From assembly GCA_019054805.1 (NCBI GenBank), contig JAHQIY010000004.1, positions 1,984,001 to 2,048,000 of the forward strand: a stretch of 64,000 bases of DNA. The letters are read 5' to 3'. This document shows, piece by piece, positions 5,704 to 59,490 of this stretch. The translations under genes and the position numbers were made by a program. Each line of letters starts with the position of its first letter. Positions within the stretch are counted from its first letter, which is position 1. The DNA is from Brachionus manjavacas (taxonomy: Eukaryota > Rotifera > Eurotatoria > Ploima > Brachionidae). The notes beneath the pieces are model-generated. The model was not told where the DNA came from, made no database searches, and was given only the letters and a program-made list of their open reading frames with translations.

Positions 5704-6064
5704 TGTGGTGTCTTGACAAAGACAACACAAAAGTCACCATCTGATTCAATCAGTTTCTTTTTATTGTGACTGACTAACGCGCATACGCAGATATTGCTGC
5801 AACCAAGCAGTTATGTCTGCTATCTCAAGACTGACATTTTTATTCGCATGCGTTAGTCAATCACAATATGAATTCAATTTTATATTTGATTCGAACCACA
5901 TTTTGTACACTTTTTTATGAATAAGGAACAAACAATTTTATTGACTTCGGCCTAATGTTTTATTTTAATTTTAGAACGGCCGTTTTCATATTTTTAAAAA
6001 TAAAGAATCTCGTAACAGTAAACCTTTTACTTTGTTGACGGATTTGTAAACGTGGAACACCACA
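5704..6064 (+). repeat. 5' LTR of Gypsy element
   Basis: 361 bp. Contains an internal near-palindrome around tgactgactaacgcgcatac and gcgttagtcaatcaca. A polyadenylation-like AATAAAG lies close to the 3' end. Reads identical to the 3' LTR. Confidence 0.93.
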
Positions 6065-6248
6065 TCTGGCGACGAGGATAAAAAAAAAAAAAAAAGAAGA
6101 AGAAATTTATGTTGGAAGGGGAGAAAGAGGAAGAAGAAAAAGCGAAAACAAGGAGCAACTTCTCACTCAACAACAAATCGTGCAGCAACAACTGCATTCA
6201 CAACAAATTGAGCAGCAACAAATACCCGCACAACAACAGGTAAATAAA

Positions 6249-9200
6249 ATGGCAGTAGCAATGCCAATGGAAATTTTCGACTATGGTCGAAACATGGATA
6301 CACTAGGATCCAGATGGAAGAGATGGCTCGACAAGTTTGAACTCCACATCACAGGAAATGCTCTCACAGACGAGGATATGATCAAGGCCCGCTTCTTAAT
6401 GAATATGGGGGACGCGGTCTATGATACAGCAGAATCACTTGGTTTAAACCTCAAAGATAAAACTCGCAAGGAAATTCATGAGGCTCTCACGAAACATTTC
6501 AACCCCGAAAAATCTGAGGTCAACGAAATCCTGAAATTTCGACGCGCGCTGAAGCACAAAGATGAACCAGTGAACAGCTACTACTTGCGACTCCGAGATC
6601 TCAGCCAACACTGCGGGTTTAGTACCGGACTGGAAAGAGAACTAGCTATCCAGTTTCTCTACGGATGTGGCATGGAGCCTGTGCACCGCAAAGGCGTAGC
6701 TCTGACAAAAGCTGAGTTCAAGCTGGACACAATCTTAGACTATGCCAGGGCTTACGAGAAATCCGAACGCAACGTCGGTGAGATTGCTCAGCACGGTTCC
6801 GAGCTTGCAGCCAAACAAAGTGTCAGCTTTGTAGCGAATAAAGGTTACAACCAGTCTCGCCCAAAGCAAGAGACCCGCGGAAGATGCGCCTGGTGCGGCG
6901 GAGAACGCCATGCTACGAGAGAGGCCTGCCCAGCGAACGGAAAAAAATGCGACAAGTGCGGCAAGCCGAACCACTTTGCAGCAGTATGCCTATTCGAACA
7001 AATGCCACGAAGCAGCCAACAATCGGCAAACAATGGCCAGACTCAACCCTTTCGAGGCGGAGGACAGCGCCATGGCAAAAACTCGAAGCCTACCTTAAGC
7101 CAACAGTACTCAAAACACAAAGGTCAAGTAAATGCGGTTGCCAGCAAGCAATCCGACAACGAACTGGCTGGCAAGGTCGTGCTTGACGAAGCCGAAGCCG
7201 CCTCATACCTCAAATATAAGAAGTTGGTCAACCTGGATATCTGTACCATCACCGACGACCCAAAGGTTCACCGGATCGAAGAAGAGAGGGATGAGCGATA
7301 TTTAGGAGCTGAATTGCAAGGCAGCAACGTTGTATGGCTCATAGACTCAGGATCGATGATAAACATCATCGATGAGCCGACCTACAAACAGCTCAAGCAT
7401 CAGCCAACCCTCAAGGCGTGCACGACTGGATACTACGCATACAAGTCAGCCGTACCGTTCCAGATGCTGGGCTGTTTCGAAACGACCATCAAACGAAACA
7501 GTAAGTCAACGAAAGCAAGTGTCATGGTAGTGCCGGGAAAGGAGCGGAACTTGTTAGGCTTTAGTACGTCGAAAGCACTCGGACTGGTAACTCTCAACGT
7601 CAACTCAGTGGCTGAAGGTAGCGGTAGCAATAAGCTAAGCAAGGACCAGCTAGCCGAGCGATTTCCAGCACTGTTCAGTGGGAAAATCGGCTGCGTCAAG
7701 GATGTCAAAGTTAAGCTGGACATTGACGAATCAGTAAAGCCAACACGCCAGCCGCAAAGACCTGTCCCGTTCTGTATGCGCGAGGCAGTAGAAATGGAAC
7801 TCTTGAAGCAGGTAGACGAGGGGATCATTGAAAGAGTAAGAGGTGGACACACTCCATGGGTGGCGAATCTGGTAATTGTCAACAAGGACAAAGGGGCCAA
7901 AACCGGCTCATCCATGCAATCGTCAACGCAAGAGCCGCCATCAGTCAGGCTAACGTGCGACTCAAGAGCGATGAACAAGGCCATAAGACGCACAAGATTC
8001 CCTTGTCGGACCGTGGAAGACCTTTGCACAGTGGTTCAGGGTGCCAAGCTGTTCAGTAAATTGGACATATCAAAGGCCTTTCACCAGCTTGAGCTTGATG
8101 AGGAATCCAGGCACCTCACCACGATCACCACGCATATAGGTCTTTTCAGATACAAGCGCCTACACATGGGTATCTCTTCGGCTTCCGAAGTCTTTACAGA
8201 AACGATTCGTGTGATGCTCGAGGACTTGCAAGGTCAAATAAACATGACTGACGATATCCTGGTCTTTGGAAAGACTAGGGAAGAACATCACACCAACCTC
8301 CTGGCAGTTCTGCAGCGACTCGAAGAAAGAGGTCTAACACTCAACAGAGAGAAATGCCAGTTTTACACGACCGAAGTAGAGTTTTACGGCTTGAAGTTCT
8401 CCGAAAACGGTATGTCTCCAACAGAGGACCGCTGCCGCGCTTTGAAGGAAGCGAATCCGCCGGCTAACGCAAAGGAGCTAAAAAGCTTCCTCTGCAGTAT
8501 GCAATTTAGCGCAAGATTCATGCCTAACTGGTGCTCTAAAGCATCTCCGCTGTGGGAACTGGCACGAGACGGCGTCGAGTGGAAGTGGGGACTGGAGGAG
8601 CAGAAGGCCTTTGATGAGGTAAAGGAGCTTGCTAGCAATAAGTGCTTTGCCTACTTCAATAAGAATTGGCTTACCGAGCTAGTCATCGATGCAAGTCCAG
8701 TCGGGCTCGGAGCCATACTATATCAGGTCAACCCAAACGATGCACAAGAGAGAGTCATGGTTGTGTGCGCCTCAAGACTGCTCACTGACGTCGAAAGGCG
8801 ATACAGCCAGTGCGAAAAAGAAGGGCTCGCTGCTATCTGGGCATGTGAGAAGCTAGCGATATATCTTCTCGGTAACCGATTCACTCTTGTCACTGACAAT
8901 CGAGGAATCCAGTGCATTCTTGCTAACACCAAATCTAGACCTCCACCCCGCATCGAGCGGATAGCTCTGCGCCTCTCTCAATTCAACTTCGACGTCAGGC
9001 ATGTGAAAGGAGAGTTGAATGCAGCTGACTACTATTCTAGGAAGCCGTCAGGAGCATGCACAGCCGCATATCTTGAAGAGATTTCGACCGAGAGACATGT
9101 GAACATGGTAGCCAGCTCAGCAGTGCCACCAGCAATGACACTTGATGAGGTCGCAAGGGCAACTCAATCGGATGATAATCTTCAAGTGCTCATCAACCTG

Positions 9201-10847
9201 GTAAGCAAGGGAGGCAGCAGCCACGATCTGATTGAAAGGCTAAGCGAGTATAAAGCGGTTTTCGATGAACTAAGTGTAACTGAGCGCGGCATCTTACTTA
9301 AAGGGCAACGTTTAGTGATTCCAAACTCTCTGCGAGACCGTGTAGTCGAGATAGCCCACATTGCTCACCAAGGAATAGTGAAAACGAAGGCCCTTATCCG
9401 GTCGCGCGTTTGGTTCCCAGGCATCGAGAAGAGAGTCGAAGAGCGGGTCAAATCATGTCGTGAATGCCAAGCGAACGCCGGCAAGCCAAGCTTTGAGCCA
9501 CTTAGACCATCAAAGATGCCAGCTGGTCCGTGGCAAGAGGTCAGCGGCGATTTCTACGGCCCAATGTCAACTGGTAAGTACTGGTTCGTCAACCATTGTG
9601 ACTACTCTCGTTGGATAAGCGTGAAGGAGATTACCACTGTCTCATTTCAAGCTGTATCAAACCACCTAACCAATCTCTTCAGCACCTTGGGAGCACCGCT
9701 GATCTATAAGGCAGATAACGGATCCCCTTTCCAGTCACACGACTTCGCCAACTTCGCAAAGCAGTGGGGTTTTACTCATCGTAAAATCGCACCCGAATGG
9801 CCGAGAGCAAACGCTGAGGCAGAAGCTACGATGAAAAAGCTTGGTAAAGTCGTGAGGACAGCAGAACTGTCCGGCATGAGCCGAACAGTGGCGCTGCAGC
9901 TATTCCTACGCCAATACAGAGAAACGCCACACGCTACCACCAAGGTAGCTCCAGCCATGCTTCTAATGGGATTCAGCCGCTCCTCAGGCATCCCACAACA
10001 TGAAACACCTACACCAGACATGCAACGATTAGCCCGACTTCACGAGTTTGCGAGAGCAAATGACGCTAAAGCCAAGCAGAGGATGATGGAGGACTATAAT
10101 CACCGCATGAGAGTAAAGCAGAGAGATTTAGCAGTAGGCTGGAGAGTGCTGCTGAAGAAAACGAGAACGAAGAAAACTGACTCGCTGTGGGATCCAGATC
10201 CGTACACCATCACCGAAATAAAAGGAAGTATGATCACAGCAACCCGTTTGTACCCGAGTCCTCATTCTTTGACGCGGAATTCGTCATTTTTTAAGCGCTA
10301 TTACGAATATGAACAGGATCTGCAACTGAGTTTGACACCAAAAGCGCTGCCAAATGCGGAATCAAACGCCCAATCAAACGCATGGTCAAGAGTGACGCCA
10401 AACGAGCTGCGAACTGCACCAACAAACTCGCTTCCCGTCCAACAAAACACTTCAATTGAGGATACCTACTCAACCATGCGAAATACAAAATCTAGCCAGC
10501 CAGCTCAGCAGCTATTGGATGAAGTAGGTGACTCAGAGGAAAGCGGGGAGATGTCCACGCCGCTACAGCCAGCCGAACCACAAAACAAAGTGGTTGCGGA
10601 GACTAAAACGCCGAAACGGGTCGGCAGGCCAAACAAGGCTATCGTAGAGGCTAACAAGAAGGCAAACCTCGAATCCAAGAACATCTACTATGAGTGGCGC
10701 GATAGCAACCCCCATGTCCGGACGTCCAAACGCAACCAAGCGAAACGCACTGGTCAAAGCAGCTCTGGAGGAGAGGGGAGATGTGGTGTCTTGACAAAGA
10801 CAACACAAAAGTCACCATCTGATTCAATCAGTTTCTTTTTATTGTGA
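6249..10847 (+). CDS. Gypsy gag-pol polyprotein
   Basis: Retrotransposon polyprotein, gag and pol fused in one frame. The first in-frame ATG is at 6249; the frame stays open upstream into a Gln-rich stretch from about 6070, so the true start is uncertain. Domains by position: capsid-like gag 6270-6800; two zinc knuckles (CAWCGGERH and CDKCGKPNH) 6885-6990; protease WLIDSGS near 7336; reverse transcriptase with FSKLDISKAFHQLEL and NMTDDILVFG (TDD variant of the YxDD box) 7780-8400; RNase H from LVIDASPVGLGAILY near 8680; integrase HHCC zinc finger 9350-9470 and DDE core (GDFYGP, KADNGSPF) 9540-9840. Near 10708 this copy has five Cs where the arm copy at 20 kb has four, shifting the last ~45 residues out of frame into the LTR. 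Most like Mag/K02A2.6-type Gypsy elements, by motif impression. Confidence 0.93.
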   Translation: MAVAMPMEIFDYGRNMDTLGSRWKRWLDKFELHITGNALTDEDMIKARFLMNMGDAVYDTAESLGLNLKDKTRKEIHEALTKHFNPEKSEVNEILKFRRALKHKDEPVNSYYLRLRDLSQHCGFSTGLERELAIQFLYGCGMEPVHRKGVALTKAEFKLDTILDYARAYEKSERNVGEIAQHGSELAAKQSVSFVANKGYNQSRPKQETRGRCAWCGGERHATREACPANGKKCDKCGKPNHFAAVCLFEQMPRSSQQSANNGQTQPFRGGGQRHGKNSKPTLSQQYSKHKGQVNAVASKQSDNELAGKVVLDEAEAASYLKYKKLVNLDICTITDDPKVHRIEEERDERYLGAELQGSNVVWLIDSGSMINIIDEPTYKQLKHQPTLKACTTGYYAYKSAVPFQMLGCFETTIKRNSKSTKASVMVVPGKERNLLGFSTSKALGLVTLNVNSVAEGSGSNKLSKDQLAERFPALFSGKIGCVKDVKVKLDIDESVKPTRQPQRPVPFCMREAVEMELLKQVDEGIIERVRGGHTPWVANLVIVNKDKGAKTGSSMQSSTQEPPSVRLTCDSRAMNKAIRRTRFPCRTVEDLCTVVQGAKLFSKLDISKAFHQLELDEESRHLTTITTHIGLFRYKRLHMGISSASEVFTETIRVMLEDLQGQINMTDDILVFGKTREEHHTNLLAVLQRLEERGLTLNREKCQFYTTEVEFYGLKFSENGMSPTEDRCRALKEANPPANAKELKSFLCSMQFSARFMPNWCSKASPLWELARDGVEWKWGLEEQKAFDEVKELASNKCFAYFNKNWLTELVIDASPVGLGAILYQVNPNDAQERVMVVCASRLLTDVERRYSQCEKEGLAAIWACEKLAIYLLGNRFTLVTDNRGIQCILANTKSRPPPRIERIALRLSQFNFDVRHVKGELNAADYYSRKPSGACTAAYLEEISTERHVNMVASSAVPPAMTLDEVARATQSDDNLQVLINLVSKGGSSHDLIERLSEYKAVFDELSVTERGILLKGQRLVIPNSLRDRVVEIAHIAHQGIVKTKALIRSRVWFPGIEKRVEERVKSCRECQANAGKPSFEPLRPSKMPAGPWQEVSGDFYGPMSTGKYWFVNHCDYSRWISVKEITTVSFQAVSNHLTNLFSTLGAPLIYKADNGSPFQSHDFANFAKQWGFTHRKIAPEWPRANAEAEATMKKLGKVVRTAELSGMSRTVALQLFLRQYRETPHATTKVAPAMLLMGFSRSSGIPQHETPTPDMQRLARLHEFARANDAKAKQRMMEDYNHRMRVKQRDLAVGWRVLLKKTRTKKTDSLWDPDPYTITEIKGSMITATRLYPSPHSLTRNSSFFKRYYEYEQDLQLSLTPKALPNAESNAQSNAWSRVTPNELRTAPTNSLPVQQNTSIEDTYSTMRNTKSSQPAQQLLDEVGDSEESGEMSTPLQPAEPQNKVVAETKTPKRVGRPNKAIVEANKKANLESKNIYYEWRDSNPHVRTSKRNQAKRTGQSSSGGEGRCGVLTKTTQKSPSDSISFFLL

Positions 10848-11142
10848 CTGACTAACGCGCATACGCAGATATTGCTGCAACCAAGCAGTTATGTCTGCTA
10901 TCTCAAGACTGACATTTTTATTCGCATGCGTTAGTCAATCACAATATGAATTCAATTTTATATTTGATTCGAACCACATTTTGTACACTTTTTTATGAAT
11001 AAGGAACAAACAATTTTATTGACTTCGGCCTAATGTTTTATTTTAATTTTAGAACGGCCGTTTTCATATTTTTAAAAATAAAGAATCTCGTAACAGTAAA
11101 CCTTTTACTTTGTTGACGGATTTGTAAACGTGGAACACCACA
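10782..11142 (+). repeat. 3' LTR of Gypsy element
   Basis: 361 bp, same ends as the 5' LTR, immediately after the purine tract. It lies inside the left palindrome arm and is mirrored by 19531-19892. Confidence 0.93.
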
Positions 11143-19530: not shown

Positions 19531-19892
19531 TGTGGTGTTCCACGTTTACAAATCCGTCAACAAAGTAAAAGGTTTACTGTTACGAGATTCTTTATTTTTA
19601 AAAAATATGAAAACGGCCGTTCTAAAATTAAAATAAAACATTAGGCCGAAGTCAATAAAATTGTTTGTTCCTTATTCATAAAAAAGTGTACAAAATGTGG
19701 TTCGAATCAAATATAAAATTGAATTCATATTGTGATTGACTAACGCATGCGAATAAAAATGTCAGTCTTGAGATAGCAGACATAACTGCTTGGTTGCAGC
19801 AATATCTGCGTATGCGCGTTAGTCAGTCACAATAAAAAGAAACTGATTGAATCAGATGGTGACTTTTGTGTTGTCTTTGTCAAGACACCACA
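19531..19892 (-). repeat. Gypsy LTR in right arm
   Basis: Inverted copy of the 3' LTR, one base longer (six As against five in an A-run near 19598). On its outer side it joins the purine tract and pol sequence of the truncated element. Confidence 0.92.
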
Positions 19893-26437: not shown

Positions 26438-26944
26438 ATGAAGTATCGTTCAAAAGTTTTTATTTATATTTTGTATTATGCTTTTCATCAACAAATAACA
26501 AGAACAAACAATGAAACATTGAAAATGTCCACTGAACTAGCTACAAAAAATACTATCACTCAAAAGGAAAATGAAAAATTTGATCCATCTCATTCAACTT
26601 ATGAGGCAGAAAATATTTTTTTGCCGATGGTAGAAGATTTAAATTTACGATATTTAGATTTTGAAATCAGCATTTCAAAAATTGATAATTCTGCTGTCAT
26701 CCTTAAAAAGTTTTTGTATGTTTTATATAATAATGATCAAAGGATTCTATCATTTTATAATAATTTCTTGATTTTAACAACATTTGATTCGAAAACTAAA
26801 TGTTTCAAAAAATGCTCTAAATTTAATTGTTATTATGTTGTCTTTAATAGCAAACTTTCTAGATGTGATTTATATTCCTTTTTTTATTCGGATTCTTTTA
26901 CTTTTAATTCACCTGGATTCTCTGTCTTTTCTTTAAAATCATAA
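26438..26944 (+). CDS. Secreted orphan protein, single-unit form
   Basis: 168 residues, one exon. Residues 1-25 are a likely signal segment (KVFIYILYYAFHQQI). An acidic Ser/Thr-rich middle (residues about 30-75) contains YEAENIFLPMVEDLNLRY, equivalent to one unit of the tandem repeat in the gene at 41540. The last ~80 residues (KKFLYVLYNNDQRILSFY onward) form a small domain with four cysteines, CFKKCSKFNC and RCDLYSFF, a spacing reminiscent of PAN/Apple modules. The same start context (atagaaATGAAG) and C-terminal domain occur in the paralogue. I do not recognise the family. Secretion and the PAN comparison are inference. Confidence 0.7.
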   Translation: MKYRSKVFIYILYYAFHQQITRTNNETLKMSTELATKNTITQKENEKFDPSHSTYEAENIFLPMVEDLNLRYLDFEISISKIDNSAVILKKFLYVLYNNDQRILSFYNNFLILTTFDSKTKCFKKCSKFNCYYVVFNSKLSRCDLYSFFYSDSFTFNSPGFSVFSLKS

Positions 26945-32318: not shown

Positions 32319-34190
32319 GAATATGCCTGTTTTCGACAAGAATAAATTAGACATGATTTTAAGGTAAATTTTGGACAAGTTAATTTTGGACAACAATTAT
32401 ATCGACATCTATAATTTGGACAGGCATCTAAAATTTTGACATGTATGATTTAGACAGAAAAATTCAAAAATTTATTAATTAAAAAATACAAAAATATAAA
32501 TAAAAGAATTATAATTAGTCCATTTATCTATTAAATTCTATCAAGTAAAATTAAATTTTAAGGAAAAGATAAAGTTTTATTAAAAGTAAAATCAGAAATA
32601 GCTAGATTTAATTGCTCTTCCAAATAAATATAACCTGGCTTACGTCTGTTAGTACGACCAGAACACAACTTTATAAATTCATTTTCTGTATTTGATTGCT
32701 CTTACTTAAGACTATCAATTAAGCTTAGCAAATGTGGATGAGATTTTATTATAGATTTCAATCCATTATGCCAACCTTCTAAATTGTTATTTGTCCGTGG
32801 AAGTTCTTGTTTAGTGCGATCGTAACAATTCCAAAAATGAAATAGGATATCTTGCCTCTTTACGAGTTCCATATCGACCTCTTCATTTCAATCCAATATA
32901 TGTTTCTTCAAAATATTTGTATAATTTTTTAAGTTTAGCAGGAGCATTTTTTTGTAATAAAATAAAACAATCTAAAACATCATCAAATGGAACAAATGCT
33001 AAGCAAACTAACTTTTTACAGTACAACCAACTAAATTTTGCGAAATTGTCATGTCACAGTATTCTATCGAAAGACCTTCTTGTTGAATATGCCGCCATAT
33101 CGACTTTTTAAAATGAAAAAAGCACCCACATACTTTAGTTTCTGGAAAAATTTCTTCAATTGAATTAATTATTGCTAATTCGAGATCAGTAGAGATAGTT
33201 TTTGGTGAATTTGTAATTTTATTTTTTATGTAACCAAAAAATTGGTTGTATGTAGTCTCTAGCTTGTTTACAAATAAACCGTAGACTAAAGGCAAACTCT
33301 TACCGTTTTTAATGATATGAACTGAAAACATTTGAGTAAATATAGATGGTGGTACATCAAAAGTCCCATCACATAACCAGTGAGGATACTCATTTAAAAG
33401 TTGAAGATTTTTCTCAGTGGAGAATATCAGCATACGATTTGTATTATCACTATCTTCAAAATTGTCATGCAACAAGAAACATTCTCCTCTTAAAGATTTA
33501 GTAAAAATTCCATTTAATTCAAAATTAAGATCAGTTGGTATATCATAATTCTCATACGGATCAACACGAGCACTATTATACAACTGCCTGCATGCATTAT
33601 ATGTAGGGAGATTAGCAGCCACTTCTTCACTCACAGATTTCTGACACTCTATAATAATTTTTCTCGGCTTTGTATCTTGATTTTTTTCTGCCATGTCTTT
33701 AATTGATGCTTTTACAAATTTTACTTGTGTTTTGATGGTGTTTATATGCTCATGTTCTCTCAGATTTTTTATCGGCTTTTTATGACCAAATGTAAAAACA
33801 GCTCCTTGACAATTGGGATATGATGTATTATTGCAACGACATGTGATTTTTCCATCTTTACCCTCATAGCTTACTTTATATTCAAAAAAATTTTCGTCAA
33901 TAAGTATCCAACTTGGACTCACGTCTTTTTTGCTTCTAGAAGATTTGATTAAATTAAGGTTTAAATTTAAATTTTCAAACAAATTTGTTATGCCATCCAT
34001 TTTTTTTTAAAACTATAAACAAATTCAAAATTAAATTTTATTTTTTTATGTCGAAAAACTACATGTCGAATTTATTTTTGTCGAGTATAAAATAATTTGT
34101 CTTAATTAGTTATGTCGAATTCAGACAAGTCGAGTTTTTCATGTCGAATTTATATCTGTCGAAATTAACTTGTCAAAAACAGTTGCAACC
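32319..34190 (-). mobile_element. MULE DNA transposon
   Basis: 1872 bp, flanked by a 9-bp duplication with one mismatch (gatctttag 32310-32318; gatcttaag 34191-34199), the size expected for Mutator-like elements. The outer 22 bp are imperfect inverted repeats sharing ctgttttygacaag. Both subterminal regions (to about 32460 and from about 34030) carry repeated TCGACA/GGACA and TGTCGAATT motifs. Confidence 0.8.
32586..34000 (-). pseudogene. MULE transposase, frameshifted
   Basis: Transposase of the surrounding element. The intact N-terminal 330 residues (34000 to 33008) contain a FLYWCH-like zinc finger (CRCNNTSYPNCQGAVFTF...HEH) and the MULE catalytic core: WLCDGTFDVPP (first Asp), TISTDLELA (second Asp) and VCGCFFHFKKSIWRHIQ. 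Beyond 33008 the protein goes on in shifted frames with FEETYIG and RTNNNLEGWHNGLK, both typical of this family, to about 32586. At least two frameshifts and one stop, so it is presumed inactive unless they are sequencing errors. Confidence 0.85.
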
Positions 34191-34865: not shown

Positions 34866-35760
34866 TTAATTTTTAGTACATTACAAACACAAATTAGCGA
34901 CCAGTGAAACGCCTTACAACTTCAGCTTTTGGTAAATTTTGGTTACTTTTTACAAATTTGTAAAAATCTTTTTTGATAGTTTCGTACATTTTTTACTCAC
35001 AACTTATCGAAAATTCAACTTTATGATTTAATTTAATAATAATAAAAAAGAGCTTCAGCAAGCGAGCTTGCGGAGATAGCTTACTCGGAAGCCATCTATG
35101 GTAGCTAATTGCACAAAAATCGAGAGATAAATTAAGGAACTACAATAAAAGTTACAGAGACGAAACTGAGATACAAGACGAATACGAGAGATTATACAGA
35201 TTGATGAGTTAAGTAGATTTAAAGTAATTCAAAAAAATTTGTCATTAATAAGAAATTGATAAAAAATAAATTAAATAATTGTACAATAGTATAAAAAACT
35301 AATAAGAGATGAGTAACTTCATATAAAGGTACAATTTATTAGGAAAAAAAGAATTTAAAGAGACACAGAAATTACATAAGATTATAGAGAACATCAAGGG
35401 TAAAGAAAAAGATAAATAGAAAATAATTTACAGAAAAAATAGCTACAATTTTAAAAATAGATAGAAAATTTCGAATAAATAGATACAAGATTGTATAAAG
35501 AGATAGGTGTTTAGTAAAATTTATGTACAAAAGTTTAGTTGAATTTATTTTAAAGCTAGGATCAGCCTGATTTTAAATTTTGAAAAAAATTTGTAAAGGT
35601 CTTGTCCATTATTAAAGCAAATTAAACTAAACTTTTGTGCCATCTTTTATTCTGCGCCCGTTAGGTTGTACAACAACTAATGCCTGATATCCTTTTCACT
35701 ACAGGAATTTTTATATTAGAGTTCAACTAACAATATTGAGTAATGGCATTTAAGAATAAG

Positions 35761-36058
35761 CAGACTTGTTTACAAATCACAGTTTTAAGTCTAAGTCACA
35801 AAAATTTTCGAGTCATGACTTGCACAAAAATTTTTATCAATACCTGCTTCATCTGGACCAGTCGAAAGAATTATTTTTTAAATCTGGTTACATTTAGAGA
35901 CCACATTTGTCAAGATAAACGGCCAGGAATTGGGAAGCAACTACTTAATTGGTATCAAATATGGATATATTAAATCGTTGACCTGACTTTTAAAAAAAAA
36001 AAAAATTTAAGTCATTGACTTGACTTGACTTAAGACTTGTGACTTATAAACAAGTCTG
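35761..36058 (+). mobile_element. hAT-type MITE (duplication copy A)
   Basis: 298 bp, ends cagacttgttt in both orientations, perfect 8-bp duplication agaataag (35753-35760 and 36059-36066). Same family as 11408-11901. Also present in copy B at 57560, so it predates the segmental duplication. Confidence 0.88.
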
Positions 36059-36115
36059 AGAATAAGCAAAATTCGGGAATTTGAAAATTGTTAAAATTAT
36101 TGAGATTTTCAAAAT

Positions 36116-36507
36116 GGAACAAAATAGAATGGAAGATGATGATATTTGCCTTTTTAGTGGAAAGCGATAAAAACTTGAGTCTATAAAAACTGAAAATTTG
36201 CAACGCGAGTCAGAAATAAAACCTCTAGTAAATGTGTATGAAAGTTGTCACCTAGAACAGTATTTAAATGGATTTGCAAAAATTGTAACTAAAAAAATTG
36301 ACAATTTTTCAATTTATTTTTTTACAAAAATTATTCTATGAATATAAAATTCGCTTATTATATATTTCTGTTAAATTTTTTAAAAAGTGTTTAAACCCTT
36401 TTGCCGATGTCATTTTTTTAATGGAAGGAAAAAAATCCAAATATTTTCCGTTACCATGTTCAAATATAAATTTTTATTGTTTTATAAAATGCTCAATTTG
36501 CCATTAG
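36116..36507 (+). pseudogene. Possible BTB-domain gene fragment
   Basis: Reads MEQNRMEDDDICLFSGK, then, with a stop and shift, VNVYESCHLEQYLNGFAK, and further on CLNPFADVIFLMEGKKSKYF. The last phrase resembles the beginning of a BTB/POZ domain (NPxFSDVxFxVEGK). The pieces are not in one frame and no rest of a domain follows. Equivalent sequence lies in copy B (57929-58333). Weak evidence. Confidence 0.3.
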
Positions 36508-36667
36508 TTTATCCGACTTAATCTATTTTACATATTTGAATGAATTGTAAACTCTTAGCAAAATTCGACTAATAATAACTCGATGTTATAACAACTTCCT
36601 CTTTTTTAGAAAACGTATTAATTTGAAAAAAAATTTAATTATTAACAAAATAAAATCAAAGTCAATT

Positions 36668-37230
36668 ATGGTTCTAATGAATGCAAGTGTATCTTCTTTT
36701 GAATGGAGATACAATGTAAATCAAAGTTTACTGCAAATAGCCTTGTACTCTCTAATGCCAATTGGAGTGGCGATGAACACCATTCAAATTTGTGTGTATT
36801 CGCGCAAAAAATTTGTAAAAAATTCAATGAATCCATTCCTAATCGCGTTGCCATTAAACAGCATTTTTGTGTTGATCTTAATCAGCCTCCGCTTTGCCGA
36901 CACAATTCAAATTTTCAACTATGAACAAAACACTGATCTTGGCTGCAAGTTTGCCTCTTTTTCTATTCGACTTTTTTTAAGTGGATGTTTTTGGCTTAAC
37001 TTTTTGTTGACAATTGACCGTCTATTTTTTATTCTGTACCCAAATAAATTCAAAAAATTACAACACACCAAAACCATGATAAAAATAATTCTCCTAATGT
37101 ACTTTGTGCTAGCAATCTTATGAAGTCCGAGCTTTTTTTTCAACAGCTCTCGAACTTTAAACAACAAAACAAATGAGACAAAATTAAGTTGTGTAGCACA
37201 TCCAGCTCTGTCAATATCGAGGATAGCAAT
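36668..37230 (+). pseudogene. GPCR, truncated copy A
   Basis: Same gene as 58492-59490, carrying transmembrane helices 1-4. Compared with the intact copy, the Cys codon at the end of helix 4 is a stop (tga at 37121-37123 against tgc). About 107 bp later the gene is cut by a LINE at 37231; helices 5-7 are not found anywhere downstream. A few missense changes precede the stop. Confidence 0.9.
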
Positions 37231-41539: not shown

Positions 41540-44500
41540 ATGAAGAATCATATAAAAAAATTAATAGGAATATTATATTTTTATGTTCTTTATCAGCAAA
41601 TAAAAATGACTAACAGTGAATTGTTGGAAGTAAGCACTGAATTAGCTCCTTTAAGTGCTATTATTCAAAAGGAAAGTGATAAAACTGATTCGTCTTATTC
41701 AACTCCTGAAGCAGAAAATATTTTGATGCCGATGGTAGAAGAAAATGCTGTTTATCCAATGGAATCTTTAAATTTACCATATGATGAATTACAGAATACT
41801 ATTTTAGAAACTGATCATGAGTTTAGCACTTCAATAAATACTTTTTTCAAAAGGAAAGTGATAAAACTGATTCGTCTTATTCAACTCCTGAAGCAGAAAA
41901 TATTTTGATGCCGATGGTAGAAGAAAATGCTGTTTATCCAATGGAATCTTTAAATTTACCATATGATGAATTACAGAATACTATTTTAGAAACTGATCAT
42001 GAGTTTAGCACTTCAATAAATACTTTTTTTCAAAAGGAAAGTGATAAAACTGATTCGTCTTATTCAACTCCTGAAGCAGAAAATATTTTGATGCCGATGG
42101 TAGAAGAAAATGCTGTTTATCCAATGGAATCTTTAAATTTACCATATGATGAATTACAGAATACTATTTTAGAAACTGATCATGAGTTTAGCACTTCAAT
42201 AAATACTTTTTTTCAAAAGGAAAGTGATAAAACTGATTCGTCTTATTCAACTCCTGAAGCAGAAAATATTTTGATGCCGATGGTAGAAGAAAATGCTGTT
42301 TATCCAATGGAATCTTTAAATTTACCATATGATGAATTACAGAATACTATTTTAGAAACTGATCATGAGTTGAGCACTTCAATAAATACATTTTTTCAAA
42401 AGGAAAGTGATAAAACTGATTCTTCTTATTCAACTCCTGAAGCAGAAAATATTTTGATGCCGATGGTAGAAGAAAATGCTGTTTATCCAATGGAATCTTT
42501 AAATTTACCATATGATGAATTACAGAATACTATTTTAGAAACTGATCATGAGTTTAGCACTTCAATAAATACTTTTTTTCAAAAGGAAAGTGATAAAACT
42601 GATTCGTCTTTTTCAACTCCTGAAGCAGAAAATATTTTGATGCCGATGGTAGAAGAAAATGCTGTTTATCCAATGGAATCTTTAAATTTACCATATGATG
42701 AATTACAGAATACTATTTTAGAAACTGATCATGAGTTTAGCACTTCAATAAATACTTTTTTCAAAAGGAAAGTGATAAAACTGATTCGTCTTTTTCAACT
42801 CCTGAAGCAGAAAATATTTTGATGCCGATGGTAGAAGAAAATGCTGTTTATCCAATGGAATCTTTAAATTTACCATATGATGAATTACAGAATACTATTT
42901 TAGAAACTGATCATGAGTTTAGCACTTCAATAAATACTTTTTTTCAAAAGGAAAGTGATAAAACTGATTCGTCTTATTCAACTCCTGAAGCAGAAAATAT
43001 TTTGATGCCGATGGTAGAAGAAAATGCTGTTTATCCAATGGAATCTTTAAATTTACCATATGATGAATTACAGAATACTATTTTAGAAACTGATCATGAG
43101 TTTAGCACTTCAATAAATACTTTTTTCAAAAGGAAAGTGATAAAACTGATTCGTCTTTTTCAACTCCTGAAGCAGAAAATATTTTGATGCCGATGGTAGA
43201 AGAAAATGCTGTTTATCCAATGGAATCTTTAAATTTACCATATGATGAATTACAGAATACTATTTTAGAAACTGATAATGAGTTTAGCACTTCAATAAAT
43301 ACTTTTTTTCAAAAGGAAAGTGATAAAACTGATTCGTCTTTTTCAACTCCTGAAGCAGAAAATATTTTGATGCCGATGGTAGAAGAAAATGCTGTTTATC
43401 CAATGGAATCTTTAAATTTACCATATGATGAATTACAGAATACTATTTTAGAAACTGATAATGAGTTTAGCACTTCAATAAATACTTTTTTTCAAAAGGA
43501 AAGTGATAAAACTGATTCGTCTTTTTCAACTCCTGAAGCAGAAAATATTTTGATGCCGATGGTAGAAGAAAATGCTGTTTATCCAATGGAATCTTTAAAT
43601 TTACCATATGATGAATTACAGAATACTATTTTAGAAACTGATCATGAGTTTAGCACTTCAATAAATAAATTTTTTCAAAAGGAAAGTGATAAAACTGATT
43701 CGTCTTATTCAACTCCTGAAGCAGAAAATATTTTGATGCCGATGGTAGAAGAAAATGCTGTTTATCCAATGGAATCTTTAAATTTACCATATGATGAATT
43801 ACAGAATACTATTTTAGAAACTGATCATGAGTTTAGCACTTCAATAAATAAATTTTTTCAAAAGGAAAGTGATAAAACTGATTCGTCTTATTCAACTCCT
43901 GAAGCAGAAAATATTTTGATGCCGATGGTAGAAGAAAATGCTGTTTATCCAATGGAATCTTTAAATTTACCATATGATGAATTACAGAATACTATTTTAG
44001 AAACTGATCATGAGTTGAGCACTTCAATAAATACATTTTTTCAAAAGGAAAGTGATAAAACTGATTCGTCTTTTTCAACTCCTGAAGCAGAAAATATTTT
44101 GATGCCGATGGTAGAAGAAAATGCTGTTTATCCAATGGAATCTTTAAATTTACCATATGATGAATTACAGAATACTATTTTAGAAACTGATCATGAGTTT
44201 AGCACTTCAATAAATAAATTTTTTCAAAAGGAAAGTGATAAAACTGATTCGTCTTATTCAACTCCTGAAGCAGAAAATATTTTGATGCCGATGGTAGAAG
44301 AAAATGCTGTTTATCCAATGGAATCTTTAAATTTACCATATGATGAATTACAGAATACTATTTTAGAAACTGATCATGAGTTTAGCACTTCAATAAATAC
44401 TTTTTTTCAAAAGGAAAGTGATAAAACTGATTCGTCTTATTCAACTCCTGAAGCAGAAAATATTTTGATGCCGATGGTAGAAGAAAATGCTGTTTATCCA

Positions 44501-45649
44501 ATGGAATCTTTAAATTTACCATATGATGAATTACAGAATACTATTTTAGAAACTGATAATGAGTTTAGCACTTCAATAAATACATTTTTTCAAAAGGAAA
44601 GTGATAAAACTGATTCGTCTTTTTCAACTCCTGAAGCAGAAAATATTTTGATGCCGATGGTAGAAGAAAATGCTGTTTATCCAATGGAATCTTTAAATTT
44701 ACCATATGATGAATTACAGAATACTATTTTAGAAACTGATAATGAGTTTAGCACTTCAATAAATACTTTTTCAAAAGGAAAGTGATAAAACTGATTCGTC
44801 TTTTTCAACTCCTGAAGCAGAAAATATTTTGATGCCGATGGTAGAAGAAAATGCTGTTTATCCAATGGAATCTTTAAATTTACCATATGATGAATTACAG
44901 AATACTATTTTAGAAACTGATCATGCGTTTAGCACTTCAATAAATACTTTTTTTCAAAAGGAAAGTGATAAAACTGATTCGTCTTTTTCAACTCCTGAAG
45001 CAGAAAATATTTTGATGCCGATGGTAGAAGAAAATGCTGTTTATCCAATGGAATCTTTAAATTTACCATATGATGAATTACAGAATACTATTTTAGAAAC
45101 TGATCATGAGTTTAGCACTTCAATAAATAAATTTTTCAAAAGGAAAGTGATAAAACTGATTCGTCTTATTCAACTCCTGAAGCAGAAAATATTTTGATGC
45201 CGATGGTAGAAGAAAATGCTGTTTATCCAATGGAATCTTTAAATTTACCATATGATGAATTACAGAATACTATTTTAGAAACTGATCATGAGTTTAGCAC
45301 TTCAATAAATAAATTTTTTCAAAAGGAAAGTGATAAAACTGATTCGTCTTATTCAACTCCTGAAGCAGAAAATATTTTGATGTCGATGGTAGAAGGGGAT
45401 TTCAATCTCAAAAAGTTTTTGTATGTTTTATTTAGGTCTGATCAAAGGATTTTATCATTTTTTAACAATTATTTAATTAATTCATCATTTATGTCCAAAT
45501 TTAAATGTTTCAAGAAATGTTCTAATTACAATTGTTTTTTTGTTGTATTTAATAATGAATTTTCTAGGTGTGATTTATATTCTTTTTTTCTCTCGAAGTC
45601 ATTTACTTTTAATTCATCTGGATACTCAATTTATTTTTTAAAATATTAA
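41540..45649 (+). CDS. Secreted orphan protein with ~20 tandem units
   Basis: Paralogue of 26438-26944. N-terminus with a hydrophobic segment (LIGILYFYVLYQQI, likely signal), then 20 full and one partial copies of a 61-residue (183-bp) acidic unit, then the same ~80-residue four-cysteine C-terminal domain (FKCFKKCSNYNCFF ... RCDLYSFFLS). The unit includes STPEAENILMPMVEENAV, ESLNLPYDELQNTILETD and HEFSTSINTFF; it varies only at Tyr/Phe, His/Asn, Phe/Leu and Thr/Lys positions. The frame is broken five times, always by missing Ts in the T-run coding for FF at a unit junction (41842, 42756, 43121, 44767, 45132). If these are sequencing errors the product is about 1370 residues, repetitive and rich in Glu/Ser/Thr. 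A structural or adhesive secreted role is possible but unproven. Not a family I recognise. Confidence 0.7.
41666..45396 (+). repeat. 183-bp coding minisatellite, ~20.4 copies
   Basis: Head-to-tail array; the marker gatgccgatggtagaag recurs 20 times at 182-183-bp intervals and once as gatgtcgatgg in the last, partial unit. Units are nearly identical, indicating recent expansion or homogenisation by unequal exchange. Confidence 0.97.
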
Positions 45650-45869: not shown

Positions 45870-46150
45870 ACTGTCTCTATTCTATCCTTGTGGATAATGG
45901 GTAGGCGCTCATCTCCTTTTAAAATCCCTTTTGGAGCAACGGCTTCAATCTGACTCAGAGGCAACTGCATCGACGTGATGATGTTCACCGCAATTATTAC
46001 CCAGTCGAAACTGGTCCCCCTTTTTTTATGATGAAAAAGGTTTTTAACATTCGCCCCATATTGCAGAGATATTTTGAAGATTATTTACCCTCATCGATTT
46101 TTAAACCCTCGATCCTCTGTTTGCATGACTAATACGCAAACTAATTGATA
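45870..46150 (-). mobile_element. tRNA-derived SINE
   Basis: Read on the minus strand, a tRNA-like head (about 46150-46080: agtttgcgtattagtcatgc, then a B-box-like gagggtttaaaaatc) is followed by a body containing tcgactgggtaataattgcg and ending in gataaggat-type sequence near 45890. Shares head and body with the plus-strand copy at 60045-60238. The A box is degenerate. Confidence 0.65.
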
Positions 46151-50619: not shown

Positions 50620-52440
50620 GATTTCTTTGGTCTACCTCGTTTTTTTGGTAAATCCACTGTAGCTTCGACTGTAGCTTGTACTGTAGCTTCAGTAACATAT
50701 TCTTTCTCAATGACTGAGTCGCTACGAGGCTCTTGTTTGACTACTGCTAGCTCGGGATTGGATTAATTTACTGAACTGCTCAAATCACAATCATTTTGGT
50801 AAAACAAAGCTGCTTTTTGTTTTTTTGGTCTGCCTCTTTTGCGTTTTTCACCGATTGAAATTGTTTTAGCTTCTTCTGGGATAATGCAAAGCTTGTAACG
50901 GTATGCAAGGCCAAGAACATGAATGCAGATGTAGTGTTTAGCAAATTCTCTACAATTGCATTTGCTTTGTTTCCAATCATCGGAACATAGAATGGTCTCG
51001 TTGATCTGGCAAAATTGAGAGTAGTCATTAAATGTACGCCAAGATAAATTTTGATTTGTTAAAATATAGTCGTTAACTGTTTCTTTTGTCAGCTTTAGAT
51101 TGAGATCTTGATGACTATAAAAAATACGACCATTAGAGGAAGAAATTTTGATAATATAGTCTGTTTTTATATTGCTAGTCCATTGAAAAGCGGCAGTATA
51201 CAATTGTAGATCGCAATTAAATTCAGTGTAAAAAATTGCACGATTCACGTTTTCGGGATGTCTATCTCTTGACCAACGCCCAATAATGTCATTCTCTAAG
51301 ATTTAAGAAATGAACTTAAATTGTGACGTTCGCATTGATATCTTGTCTAATTGAATACTTTATGGCTTTCTGGGCTTCAGTGGTGAAACGATTCAGTTGC
51401 GCGTCTACTTTACGTATAACATGAGCAAAGCACATAACTCTCTTTTCATATATATCAGGGAATGCTTCTTGAAAACCATTGGTGATTGCATCGGCACCAT
51501 CTGCTATTACGATCTGTGGCGAATACTGCAGTTGCATCACATCGAAAACAACTTTTTTGATGTGATTCAAAAAGGAATTTGAAGTCATCTCCTGTTTCGT
51601 TGGTTGAAATACAAATACCAAACGGATGAAAGTGCTTTTGGCGATCATTAGTACCAATCATCAAGACTGGGAAACCTTGCCAAATGAGTTTGTAGGTAGC
51701 ATCTACTGTTAAATGCTTTGTCTTGTCCGCATTGCTAATCAGTCGCTTGGTGGTGATAAAAATTCGGAAAAACATGAGCTGATCGTTATCTACAGCTTTC
51801 TCGAAACTTGGCCAAAATGGTTAGTCATAATCGTCTGGAACCTCCTTCCGATTTTGGTGCCATAGTTCAAGATCTCGAACGTTTATTTGTGCCGGACCGT
51901 AGTTATCTTTACGTATAATAGCCAGATAGTTACTTAAAGTTTTTATTTGTGGTTGTTGTAGTCCATCATGATCGAGTGCTCTCAGTATGGCTTTTGGAGT
52001 TGTTATTTTCATTTCGAAGTAGCGCTTGATCTGCTATTTTATTTCTGTTGGTATACCTCTTTCAGTTTTGTCCTTGTGCTCATGTTTATCATCACTGATG
52101 AATAAACATACTTCGTCATCAGAAGTAAGGTGATAATAAGCCATTGTGCTGCAGCTCGACTATGGTGGCGAACAGAGGAAATAATAGCAAATAGTGTCAA
52201 TTCGTTTGCGCTTGTATTGGTATTTCCATAAGTTGGTATCGTGGCTAAATTTATTAATGAATCCTTGCTTGTTCATTGTAGCATTTTTTGCTGAATAAAT
52301 TCAGTCAACTTAATGATTGCTGCCTCTTGATATAAAATTCCTTTCCCACGATTTTTTAGTGGTTCTACATCTTCTTGGTCTATATCAAGCATTGTGTCCT
52401 CTTCATTGAAATTGGGAATTACTGATTCAGTGCTAGACAT
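50620..52440 (-). pseudogene. MULE transposase with SWIM and AT-hooks
   Basis: Start near 52440 (MSSTESVIPNFNEEDTMLDI). Following in shifted frames: KAILRALDHDGLQQPQIKTL (52012-51821); then, after one in-frame stop, LTVDATYKLIWQGFPVLMIG with the first catalytic Asp; QIVIADGADAITNGFQEAFP with the second; VMCFAHVIRKVDAQL; and finally a SWIM zinc finger CNCREFAKHYICIH and AT-hooks KRKRGRPKKQK and, beyond a stop, KKRGRPKKS near 50630. The order DDE core then SWIM is the Mutator family layout. At least three frameshifts and two stops. Element ends were not found. C-terminal pieces of a relative lie at 59925-60015 and 60240-60322. Confidence 0.85.
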
Positions 52441-56315: not shown

Positions 56316-56706
56316 TTCCTGGCATAGCGGTGTTGCCAAGAGTGAAATATGATTCATCATCAATTATTAATTAATGTTTTCTATATTTTAAAATCATTCG
56401 TCGAGATTTTGGCCTGGCTGCCTTCCCTTAGTTAGCATTTAAATTAGGTCTCTTGTGTTTTTTATACTTTTGATGTTTGTATACATCTTAAAATTTTTCC
56501 GATATAAATATAGTGGCAACTAAACTTTCTAGCCATCTTTCTTTGCAAAAGTCCCTTTTTATGATTGAAATAGGCTCAAAGTTTGGCAAACCATTAGTTT
56601 CGTCGCAATTTTAGCAGGTCTACCTCTTCCTTTTTTTCTTTTGAAAGCTAAGTCTCTTTCTATCACATCTATCCAACGATAAACAGAACGTTTTTTGTAT
56701 CCAAAA
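56316..56706 (-). pseudogene. Transposase helix-turn-helix relic
   Basis: Minus strand near 56700-56600 reads GYKKRSVYRWIDVIERDLAF, then KKGRGRPAKI, like the N-terminal HTH and GRPR linker of Tc1/mariner (IS630-type) transposases. Stops and shifts follow. It occupies the position taken by the MULE-containing 3.2 kb in copy A. Confidence 0.45.
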
Positions 56707-59054
56707 CCAGTGAATCGCCTTACAACTTTTGGTAAATTTTGGTTACTTTTTACAAATTTGTAAAAATCTTTTTAGATAGTTTCGTACATTTTTTACTCAC
56801 AACTTATCGAAAATTCAACTTTATGATTTAATTTAATAATAAAAAAAAAGAGCTACAGCAAGCGAGCTTGCGGAGATAGCTTACTCGGAAGCCATCTATG
56901 GTAGCTAATTGCACAAAAATCGAGAGATAAATTAAGGAACTACAATAAAAGTTACAGAGACGAAACTGAGATACAAGACGAATACGAGAGATTATACAGA
57001 TTGATGAGTTAAGTAGATTTAAAGTAATTCAAAAAAATTTGTCATTAATAAGAAATTGATAAAAAATAAATTAAATAATTGTACAATAGTATAAAAAACT
57101 AATAAGAGATGAGTAACTTCATATAAAGGTACAATTTATTAGGAAAAAAGAATTTAAAGAGACACAGAAATTACATAAGATTATAGAGAACATCAAGGGT
57201 AAAGAAAAAGATAAATAGAAAATAATTTACAGAAAAAATAGCTACAATTTTAAAAATAGATAGAAAATTTCGAATAAATAGATACAAGATTGTATAAAGA
57301 GATAGGTGTTTAGTAAAATTTAAGTACAAAAGTTTAGTTGAATTTATTTTAAAGCTAGGATCAGCCTGATTTTAAATTTTTAAAAAAATTTGTAAAGGTC
57401 TTGTCCATTATTAAAGCAAATTAAACTAAACTTTTGTGCCATCTTTTATTCTACGCCCGTTAGGTTGTACAACAACTAATGCCTGATATCATTTTCACTA
57501 CAGGAATTTTTATATTAGAGTTCAACTAATAATATTGAGTAATGGCATTTAAGAATAAGCAGACTTGTTTACAAGTCACAGTTTTAAGTCTAAGTCACAA
57601 AAATTTTCAAGTCATGACTTGCACAAAATTTTTTATCAATACCTGCTTCATCTGGACCAGTCGAAAGAATTATTTTTTAAATCTGGTTACATTCAGAGAC
57701 CACATTGGTCAAGATAAACGGCCAGGAATTGGGAAGCAACTACTTAATTGGTATCAAATATGGATATATTAAATCGTTGACCTGACTTTAAAAAAAAAAA
57801 AAAATTTAAGTCATTGACTTGACTTGACTTAAGACTTGTGACTAACACTTAAGACTTGTGATAAACAAGTCTGAGAATAAGCAAAATTCGGGAATTTGAA
57901 AATTGTTAAAATTATTGAGATTTTCAAAATGGAACAAAATAGAATGGAAGATGATGATATTTGCCTTTTTAGTGGAAAGCATAAAAAAAACGATAAAAAC
58001 TTGAGTCTATAAAAACTGAAAATTTGCAACGCGAGTCAGAAATAAAACCTCTAGTAAATGTGTATGAAAGTTGTCACCTAGAACAGTATTTAAATGGATT
58101 TGCAAAAAAAGTAACTAAAAAAATTGATAATTTTTCAATTTATTTTTTTACAAAAATTATTCTATGAATATAAAATTTGCTTATTATATATTTCTGTTAA
58201 ATTTTTTAAAAAGTGTTTAAACCCTTTTGCCGATGTCATTTTTTTAATGGAAGGAAAAAAATCCAAATATTTTCCGTTACCATGTTCAAATATAAATTTT
58301 TATTGTTTTATAAAATGCTCAATTTGCCATTAGTTTATCCGACTTAATCTATTTTACATATTTGAATGAATTGTAAACTCTTAGCAAAATTCGACTAATA
58401 ATAACTCGATGTTATAACAACTTCCTCTTTTTTAGAAAACGTATTAATTTGAAAAAATTTAATTATTAACAAAATAAAATCAAAGTCAATTATGGTTCTA
58501 ATGAATGCAAGTGTATCTTCTTTTGAATGGAGATACAATGTAAATCAAAGTTTACTGCAAATAGCCTTGTACTCTCTAATGCCAATTGGAGTGGCGATGA
58601 ACACCGTTCAAATTTTTGTGTATTCGCGCAAAAAATTTGTAAAAAATTCAATGAATCCATTCCTAATCGCGTTGCCATTAAACAGCATTTTGGTGTTGAT
58701 CTTAATCAGCCTCCGCTTTGCCGACACAATTCAAATTTTCAACTATGAACAAAACACTGATCTTGGCTGCAAGTTTGCCTCTTTTTTTATTCGACTTTTT
58801 TTAAGTGGATGTTTTTGGCTTAACTTTTTGTTGACAATTGACCGTCTATTTTTTATTCTGTACCCAAATAAATTCAAAAAATTACAACACACCAAAACCA
58901 TGATAAAAATAATTCTCCTAATGTACTTTGTGCTAGCAATCTTATGCAGTCCGAGCTTTTTTTTCAACAGCTCTCGAACTTTAAACAACAAAACAAATGA
59001 GACAAAATTAAGTTGTGTAGCACATCCAGCTCTGTCAATATCGAGGATAGCAAT
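56707..59054 (+). repeat. Segmental duplication, copy B part 2
   Basis: Counterpart of 34901-37230, with very few substitutions. It runs on without interruption into the 3' half of the GPCR; the true end of the duplication is unknown because copy A is cut there. Confidence 0.9.
57560..57873 (+). mobile_element. hAT-type MITE (duplication copy B)
   Basis: 314 bp with the same 8-bp duplication agaataag (57552-57559 and 57874-57881) as copy A. An extra ~16 bp near its right end is a short internal duplication (acttaagacttgtg twice). Confidence 0.88.
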
Positions 59055-59490
59055 TGTTCAGCTTTTTGGAATGTTTATTCCGTTTTTTTTGATGTTTGGA
59101 ACAAATATTGTGCTGATCCGAAAAGTGGCAAAATCAAGGAAAAAGTTCGCCTCAGCAAAAGAGATGAATTTTGCTTTTACTTTAATAATTTCGAATGTTT
59201 TATTTTTAGTTTCTTTTATTCCTTTTTCCATTTTTTTGATTTCAAACCTGCTCAAAGTCATAAACCCAAGGATAGCAAAGGACCCAGAAATAGGCTCACT
59301 AATAGCGCTCTATGATACATGTGCATTTATTATTGCCTGCTACAACTTTTCCTTAGGACTCTTGGTGCAGATTATATTTAACAAATTATTCCGCAAAGAG
59401 TTCACAAATATGATAGGCGATTTGGTTTTAATGCTAAGAATTGGTAAAAAGGTTTCATCGTCTTCTATTTCTGACCAGACTTTGAAGTAA
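58492..59490 (+). CDS. Rhodopsin-like GPCR, intact
   Basis: 332-residue seven-transmembrane receptor in one exon. Helices by sequence: TM1 LLQIALYSLMPIGVAMNTVQ; TM2 NPFLIALPLNSILVLILISL; TM3 from Cys in LGCKFASFF to LLTIDRLFFILY, where DRL replaces DRY; TM4 IILLMYFVLAILCSPSFFF; extracellular loop 2 with KLSCVAHPA, giving the second disulfide Cys; TM5 IVQLFGMFIPFFLMFGTNIV; TM6 LIISNVLFLVSFIPFSIF; TM7 ALYDTCAFIIACYNFSLGLL, without a clear NPxxY. N-glycosylation sites precede TM1 (NAS, NQS). Likely a peptide or chemosensory receptor at the plasma membrane; ligand unknown. Met1 and Met4 are both possible starts. Promoter region is shared with the dead copy A. Confidence 0.88.
   Translation: MVLMNASVSSFEWRYNVNQSLLQIALYSLMPIGVAMNTVQIFVYSRKKFVKNSMNPFLIALPLNSILVLILISLRFADTIQIFNYEQNTDLGCKFASFFIRLFLSGCFWLNFLLTIDRLFFILYPNKFKKLQHTKTMIKIILLMYFVLAILCSPSFFFNSSRTLNNKTNETKLSCVAHPALSISRIAIVQLFGMFIPFFLMFGTNIVLIRKVAKSRKKFASAKEMNFAFTLIISNVLFLVSFIPFSIFLISNLLKVINPRIAKDPEIGSLIALYDTCAFIIACYNFSLGLLVQIIFNKLFRKEFTNMIGDLVLMLRIGKKVSSSSISDQTLK

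Follow-up and report, generated by a model that had tools for sequence, protein, structure and literature searches.

The array gene and its paralogue

The 64,000-nucleotide stretch of DNA analysed here, called the window, is part of contig 4 in the assembly of Brachionus manjavacas, which comprises 114.17 Mb in 61 contigs of an AT-rich genome. The window contains a duplicated pair of genes, one with a single copy of a repeat unit and the other with a long tandem array of it (Table 1). Tandem Repeats Finder reported a 183-bp period at 41664-45395 (20.4 copies, 98% matches), and splitting the sequence at the fixed word GAAAGTGATAAAAC yielded 20 complete units and an incomplete last unit that continues into the C-terminal end of the gene, in agreement with a preliminary description of the locus that had claimed about 20 near-identical units. 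The same description mentioned a paralogue at 26438 with one unit between the same two ends, which is confirmed as an open frame of 168 codons with a shorter and diverged unit. The chance that a given frame is open over 168 codons is about 7e-7, as estimated from the base composition. The N-terminus is hydrophobic in both copies, as judged by eye, and the two proteins are likely to be secreted. The C-terminal ends are 69% identical, and all four cysteines are retained.

Table 1. Positions in the window of the features that make up the array gene and its paralogue.
Feature	Positions	Strand	Description and basis
Paralogue	26438..26944	+	Uninterrupted frame of 168 codons; signal-like N-terminus, one shorter, diverged unit, C-terminal end with four cysteines; open reading frame list, translation, alignment, dN/dS
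Array gene, start	41540..41663	+	ATG, signal-like N-terminus and lead-in to unit 1; resembles the N-terminus of the paralogue
Tandem array	41664..45395	+	20 complete units of 181-183 bp and one partial unit; Tandem Repeats Finder, unit split
Complete units, counted from GAAAGTGATAAAAC	41672..45325	+	20 units; T-run shortened and frame shifted in units 1, 6, 8, 17 and 19; unit lengths and haplotypes
Array gene, C-terminal end	45407..45649	+	Four cysteines, PAN/apple-like, stop codon; identity to the paralogue, dN/dS, PAN tests

The 183-bp unit has a length that is a multiple of three, corresponding to 61 codons, and is open in one of the six frames only (frame 0). Its translation contains nine Glu, four Asp, seven Ser, six Thr and four Pro residues (Ser/Thr 13/61, Asp/Glu 13/61), with a pI of 4.05 and no N-glycosylation sequon, and is thus acidic and rich in Ser, Thr and Glu, as had been proposed. 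From this composition, the unit appears to resemble a disordered acidic segment rather than a folded domain. Only 7 of the 183 positions vary among the 15 full-length units, so that the earlier wording "conserved in almost every base" holds as a description. No higher-order repeat was found over lags of 1 to 13 units, where the identity was 0.62-0.72 without a clear peak. A single unit had no match in Pfam, and the repeat stretch of 533 residues exceeded the cut-offs of FH2, DUF7701, WH_MCM3_C, SH3_6 and DUF7605. Since no single stretch passes on its own and the lone unit matches none of them, these five scores represent sums over the repeats and not a credible family. No RNA families or tRNAs were found in the window.

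We searched the assembly with DNA and protein queries. The first 361 bases had 21 matches among the best candidates scored, 20 of which were located at the array and one in the paralogue (76% identical). With the paralogue protein as query and an E limit of 1, 22 matches were obtained, all within the two genes, and the last 80 residues, with a limit of 10, retrieved the same two genes only, in both cases among the best candidates scored. Among the best candidates scored, the repeat matches only the array locus and, in diverged form, the paralogue, and so does not resemble a dispersed satellite or transposon. In viral contigs, a peptide pattern search matched 242 stretches, none of which was confirmed as a relative, and a single exact 18-mer match was at about chance level by our own estimate. 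A literature search with broad terms returned no paper that we recognised as describing the family of the array gene and its paralogue. The protein is best read as a lineage-restricted secreted protein.

The window also contains several mobile and duplicated sequences. An LTR retrotransposon at 5704-11142 has identical 361-bp ends that enclose an open frame of 1555 codons, in which reverse transcriptase, RNase H and integrase domains were identified, and an additional LTR copy is located at 19531-19892. On the minus strand, a MULE transposase domain and a SWIM zinc finger were found in separate open frames at 33008-34000 and 50763-51248. A dispersed element of about 270 bp at 45870-46150, SINE-like by size, was represented by the best 40 of 993 candidates scored, the other 39 of which were 86-89% identical. 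Immunoglobulin and rhodopsin-type receptor domains, suggestive of an animal genome, were identified by Pfam. A duplication at 34900-37230 and 56706-59054 (97.4% identical) extends into rhodopsin-type receptor genes, where the frame at 58492-59490 has 332 codons and that at 36623-37123 only 166. Elsewhere in the assembly, contig 21 contains a row of bacterial-type cytochrome oxidase genes near 120555, and may in whole or in part come from an associated bacterium. The first approximately 170 bases of contig 30 are a telomere-like array that mixes CCCTAA and CCCTAAA units, the only such contig start among the 11 contigs that were looked at. A search of the assembly for a rotifer spliced-leader sequence, allowing one mismatch at most, gave no match.

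The C-terminal end and PAN/apple domains

The preliminary description assigned the protein to no known family and suggested a profile search with the C-terminal 80 residues and one unit. As far as Pfam is concerned this assessment stands, as nothing credible was found for the unit or the ends. At E up to 10, the end of the array gene matched PAN_3 with 13.4 bits (E=0.069), below the cut-off of 21.1. The end of the paralogue alone had no Pfam match, and hence none to PAN, and the whole paralogue matched only the unrelated Mycobact_memb weakly (E 0.12). No Pfam match to a ZP domain was obtained. The assessment is less apt for the cysteine pattern of the C-terminal end, which resembles that of PAN/apple domains in profile tests.

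For these tests, we identified 44 PAN_1 matches in the genome at E <= 0.01 and built a profile from the 38 of them for which the complete stretch was retrieved. An hhalign comparison of the two ends with the 38-domain profile placed the four cysteines in register, with a probability of 37% and an E-value of 3.5e-4 for a single comparison. The core pattern C-x3-C ... C ... C-x-L is in register with these 38 PAN domains in both ends. The ends scored 15.1 and 14.7 bits against the HMM, and the full-length or longer proteins 9.5 and 9.1 bits; these scores include a large composition bias term, and most of the score is given by the cysteine spacing. None of 500 shuffles reached the score of either end, and with the cysteine positions fixed, 2/500 and 0/500 did so. 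A phmmer search of the two ends against the 38 domains found one of them, on contig 8 at 4770033, with E-values of 1.7e-5 and 1.7e-4. A search of the genome with PAN_3 gave no match at E <= 0.001, and the control genomes were likewise without a match. Among solved structures there were two matches, at chance level only (best E 0.18), and the AlphaFold model of the whole paralogue, with a mean pLDDT of 35.6, was uninformative. These results suggest, weakly, that both ends are PAN-like, mainly through the cysteine pattern, and that they might adopt a PAN fold.

Selection and the reading frame

We compared the two genes codon by codon. The C-terminal 80 codons have a dN of 0.196 and a dS of 0.592 (dN/dS 0.33), which shows that the C-terminal end is constrained. 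The dN/dS ratio of the N-terminus is 0.49, and its codon use in frame is -0.13 bits per codon, slightly under the background. For the unit, the ratio is 1.29 in the first half (24 codons) and 0.94 in the second half (20 codons), both based on few sites. Five of the seven variable sites among the units change the residue, which is near the neutral expectation of about 80%, and the sameness of the units is thus due to recent copying and not to constraint. The earlier claims of an expanding or homogenised array in one copy of a paralogous pair with a conserved four-cysteine end are in this way supported, and the signal-like start is seen by eye.

The preliminary description treated 41540..45649 as one gene, which is not a single open frame as assembled. 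Translation from the ATG at 41540 ends after 122 codons, and the open reading frame list gives three stretches that start at TTG, 41905-42822, 43184-44785 and 45194-45649. The unit lengths are 183 bp (15 units), 182 bp (four units) and 181 bp (one unit), and no unit exceeds 183 bp. All shortfalls in the five short units are located in one T-run (T5-T7) directly before CAAAAG: units 1, 6 and 8 have T6 for T7, unit 17 has T5 for T7, and unit 19 has T5 for T6. The losses sum to six bases, and the first and last codons of the array gene are therefore in phase, by coincidence. Four unit haplotypes carry the five shortened T-runs, and the same haplotypes are also found with the run unshortened. The changes are without exception losses relative to the majority length. 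These observations suggest that the five events were independent and that none was spread by homogenisation.

Duplicated pairs in the window served as controls for error or decay. The inverted 5.1-kb duplication 10007-15158/15522-20666 differs by a single mismatch, as against 14 gaps, 13 of which are in homopolymers. By our own count, 7 of these 13 are in runs of 6-7, and one copy of the duplication contains 34 A or T runs of this length, which corresponds to about one tenth of the 6-7 runs affected per copy, compared with 5/20 in the array. The pair 30212-31681/54807-56275 has 6 mismatches and 3 gaps, all three in homopolymers, and no homopolymer excess is seen in the pair 34900-37230/56706-59054, which differs by 25 mismatches and has two of its 5 gaps in homopolymers. 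The two 361-bp LTRs are identical, and a pair of 330 bp differs by 15 mismatches, without gaps. Homopolymers that are in phase in the other open frames of the window provide only a circular control, as open frames had been chosen. Residual errors in long-read assemblies are most commonly in homopolymer length and often persist in repeats, as described for bacterial assemblies in the Polypolish study (PMC8812927). Given the single mismatch and the many homopolymer gaps in the 5.1-kb duplication, the five frame shifts in the array are most likely homopolymer-length errors of an assembly that was presumably made from long reads, in a repeat beyond the reach of short-read polishing. In vivo, the array probably forms a single open frame with a length of about 1,370 codons.

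Interpretation and comparison with known systems

Our preferred reading, to which we assign a probability of roughly 55%, is a duplicated pair of secreted-protein genes in which the array has expanded recently, the true frame is intact and the product has a matrix-type role. A local gene duplication would have given rise to two genes, each encoding a signal-like start, an acidic spacer rich in Ser, Thr and Glu, and a PAN/apple-like end with four cysteines. Recent slippage or unequal exchange would then have amplified the 183-bp segment of the spacer in the gene at 41540, which resulted in about 20 near-identical copies. The signal-like start, the acidic repeat without sequons or dibasic sites and the PAN-like end together point to a spacer outside the cell that carries a binding module. 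The product may be a component of an extracellular filament or gel, in which the array would form an extended, negatively charged spacer whose length is free to drift, and the C-terminal module may anchor this spacer to a partner in the matrix. A matrix or mucus role is a guess.

The reading that weighs most against an intact frame takes the frame shifts as genuine, so that the array gene would be a pseudogene in decay or encode only a truncated protein of 122 residues, and the paralogue at 26438 would do the work. We consider it unlikely, but a serious alternative. The assembled frame is indeed broken in 5 of the 20 units, the units look neutral, and homopolymer slippage occurs in vivo too. 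However, the end past the array is open, constrained as seen in its dN/dS ratio, and in phase with the start through the net loss of six bases, and each of the five breaks is a T-run loss; differences of this type also predominate in one recent duplication within the window. If the T-run changes were real, the array could also be a contingency device, in which slippage in the 20 T-runs switches the PAN-like end on and off by shifting the frame; we find this the least probable of the readings considered. It would imply short and long secreted forms in different animals or cells, like the products of phase-variable genes in bacteria.

According to another reading, the unit consists of a 63-nt exon and a 120-nt intron (from GTAGAAG to the T-run and CAAAAG), whereby the T-run length would be harmless and the protein would contain repeats of 21 residues. 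Repeated exons are on record, as described for exon 2 of SmPoMuc (PMC2576457). The GT and AG are plausibly placed, the T-run would serve as a polypyrimidine tract, and the second half of the unit is near-neutral in the comparison with the paralogue. By eye, GTAGAA is present at one putative PAN-exon end of the genome and AAAG or TAAG acceptors are apparently used, but the putative introns of the PAN genes appear to be shorter than 120 nt. The putative span, moreover, has lengths of 120 nt (unit), 81 nt (paralogue) and 27 nt (last junction), in all three cases a multiple of three and free of stops, and 27 nt is too short for splicing. At an intergenic stop frequency of 0.073 per codon, the chance that 228 nt are free of stops is about 0.003 before the phase requirement, although this is not a strict probability, since the spans are homologous. 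The phase of the span lengths and the open frame in three contexts lead us to largely reject the intron, which we regard as very unlikely. A polyprotein from which some 20 copies of a secreted peptide are cleaved would agree with the many near-identical copies after a signal-like start, and repeat-bearing peptide precursors are known (PMC5850478). As two joined units contain no dibasic site, neither within the unit nor over the unit junction, we reject this reading as highly improbable. Just as improbable is a non-coding satellite or mobile DNA that is open by chance. The length of 183 bp is satellite-like, and among 2000 intergenic 183-mers that were sampled, 346 were open in any of the six frames and 90 were open with a codon score at least as high as that of the unit. 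A satellite is rejected on account of the single locus in the genome search, where the only other match among the best candidates scored was the paralogue, and the array is flanked by homologous gene ends, one of which is under purifying selection.

If the frame is intact, as we prefer, the two genes would form a clean pair, with one unit versus twenty, that illustrates the birth and homogenisation of a coding minisatellite beside a constrained end. The locus would also be an example of how homopolymer errors in a hard-to-polish repeat can disrupt a gene in the assembled sequence.

Secreted proteins in which a repeat has expanded are already familiar. The polymorphic mucins of Schistosoma mansoni (SmPoMuc), with from 1 to about 55 repeat units in the cDNAs described, follow the same plan of a signal peptide, variable tandem repeats and a remainder, and the repeat number differs greatly from gene to gene (PMC2576457). 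As described there, their 9-residue repeats are encoded by a 27-bp exon that is repeated with its introns in genomic units of about 1 kb, and the genes form a multigene family at four locations (PMC2576457). The rotifer unit, in contrast, has 61 residues and its array looks intronless, and the likeness is one of plan and not of descent. This is also the case for LET-653 of C. elegans, which is bound to the luminal matrix by its PAN domains (PMC4970718). Like LET-653, the array gene product is probably secreted and has a PAN-type module beside a low-complexity spacer, but LET-653 is described as having two PAN domains, a ZP domain and a linker rich in Pro, Thr and Ser (PMC4970718), while the array gene has one weakly PAN-like C-terminal end and a tandem array. 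The kringle IV-2 array of lipoprotein(a) is described as an in-frame unit in near-identical copies that vary in number (PMC7613587), as the copies in the rotifer array likely do too; the unit of the latter is apparently a disordered acidic segment, unlike the folded kringle IV-2.
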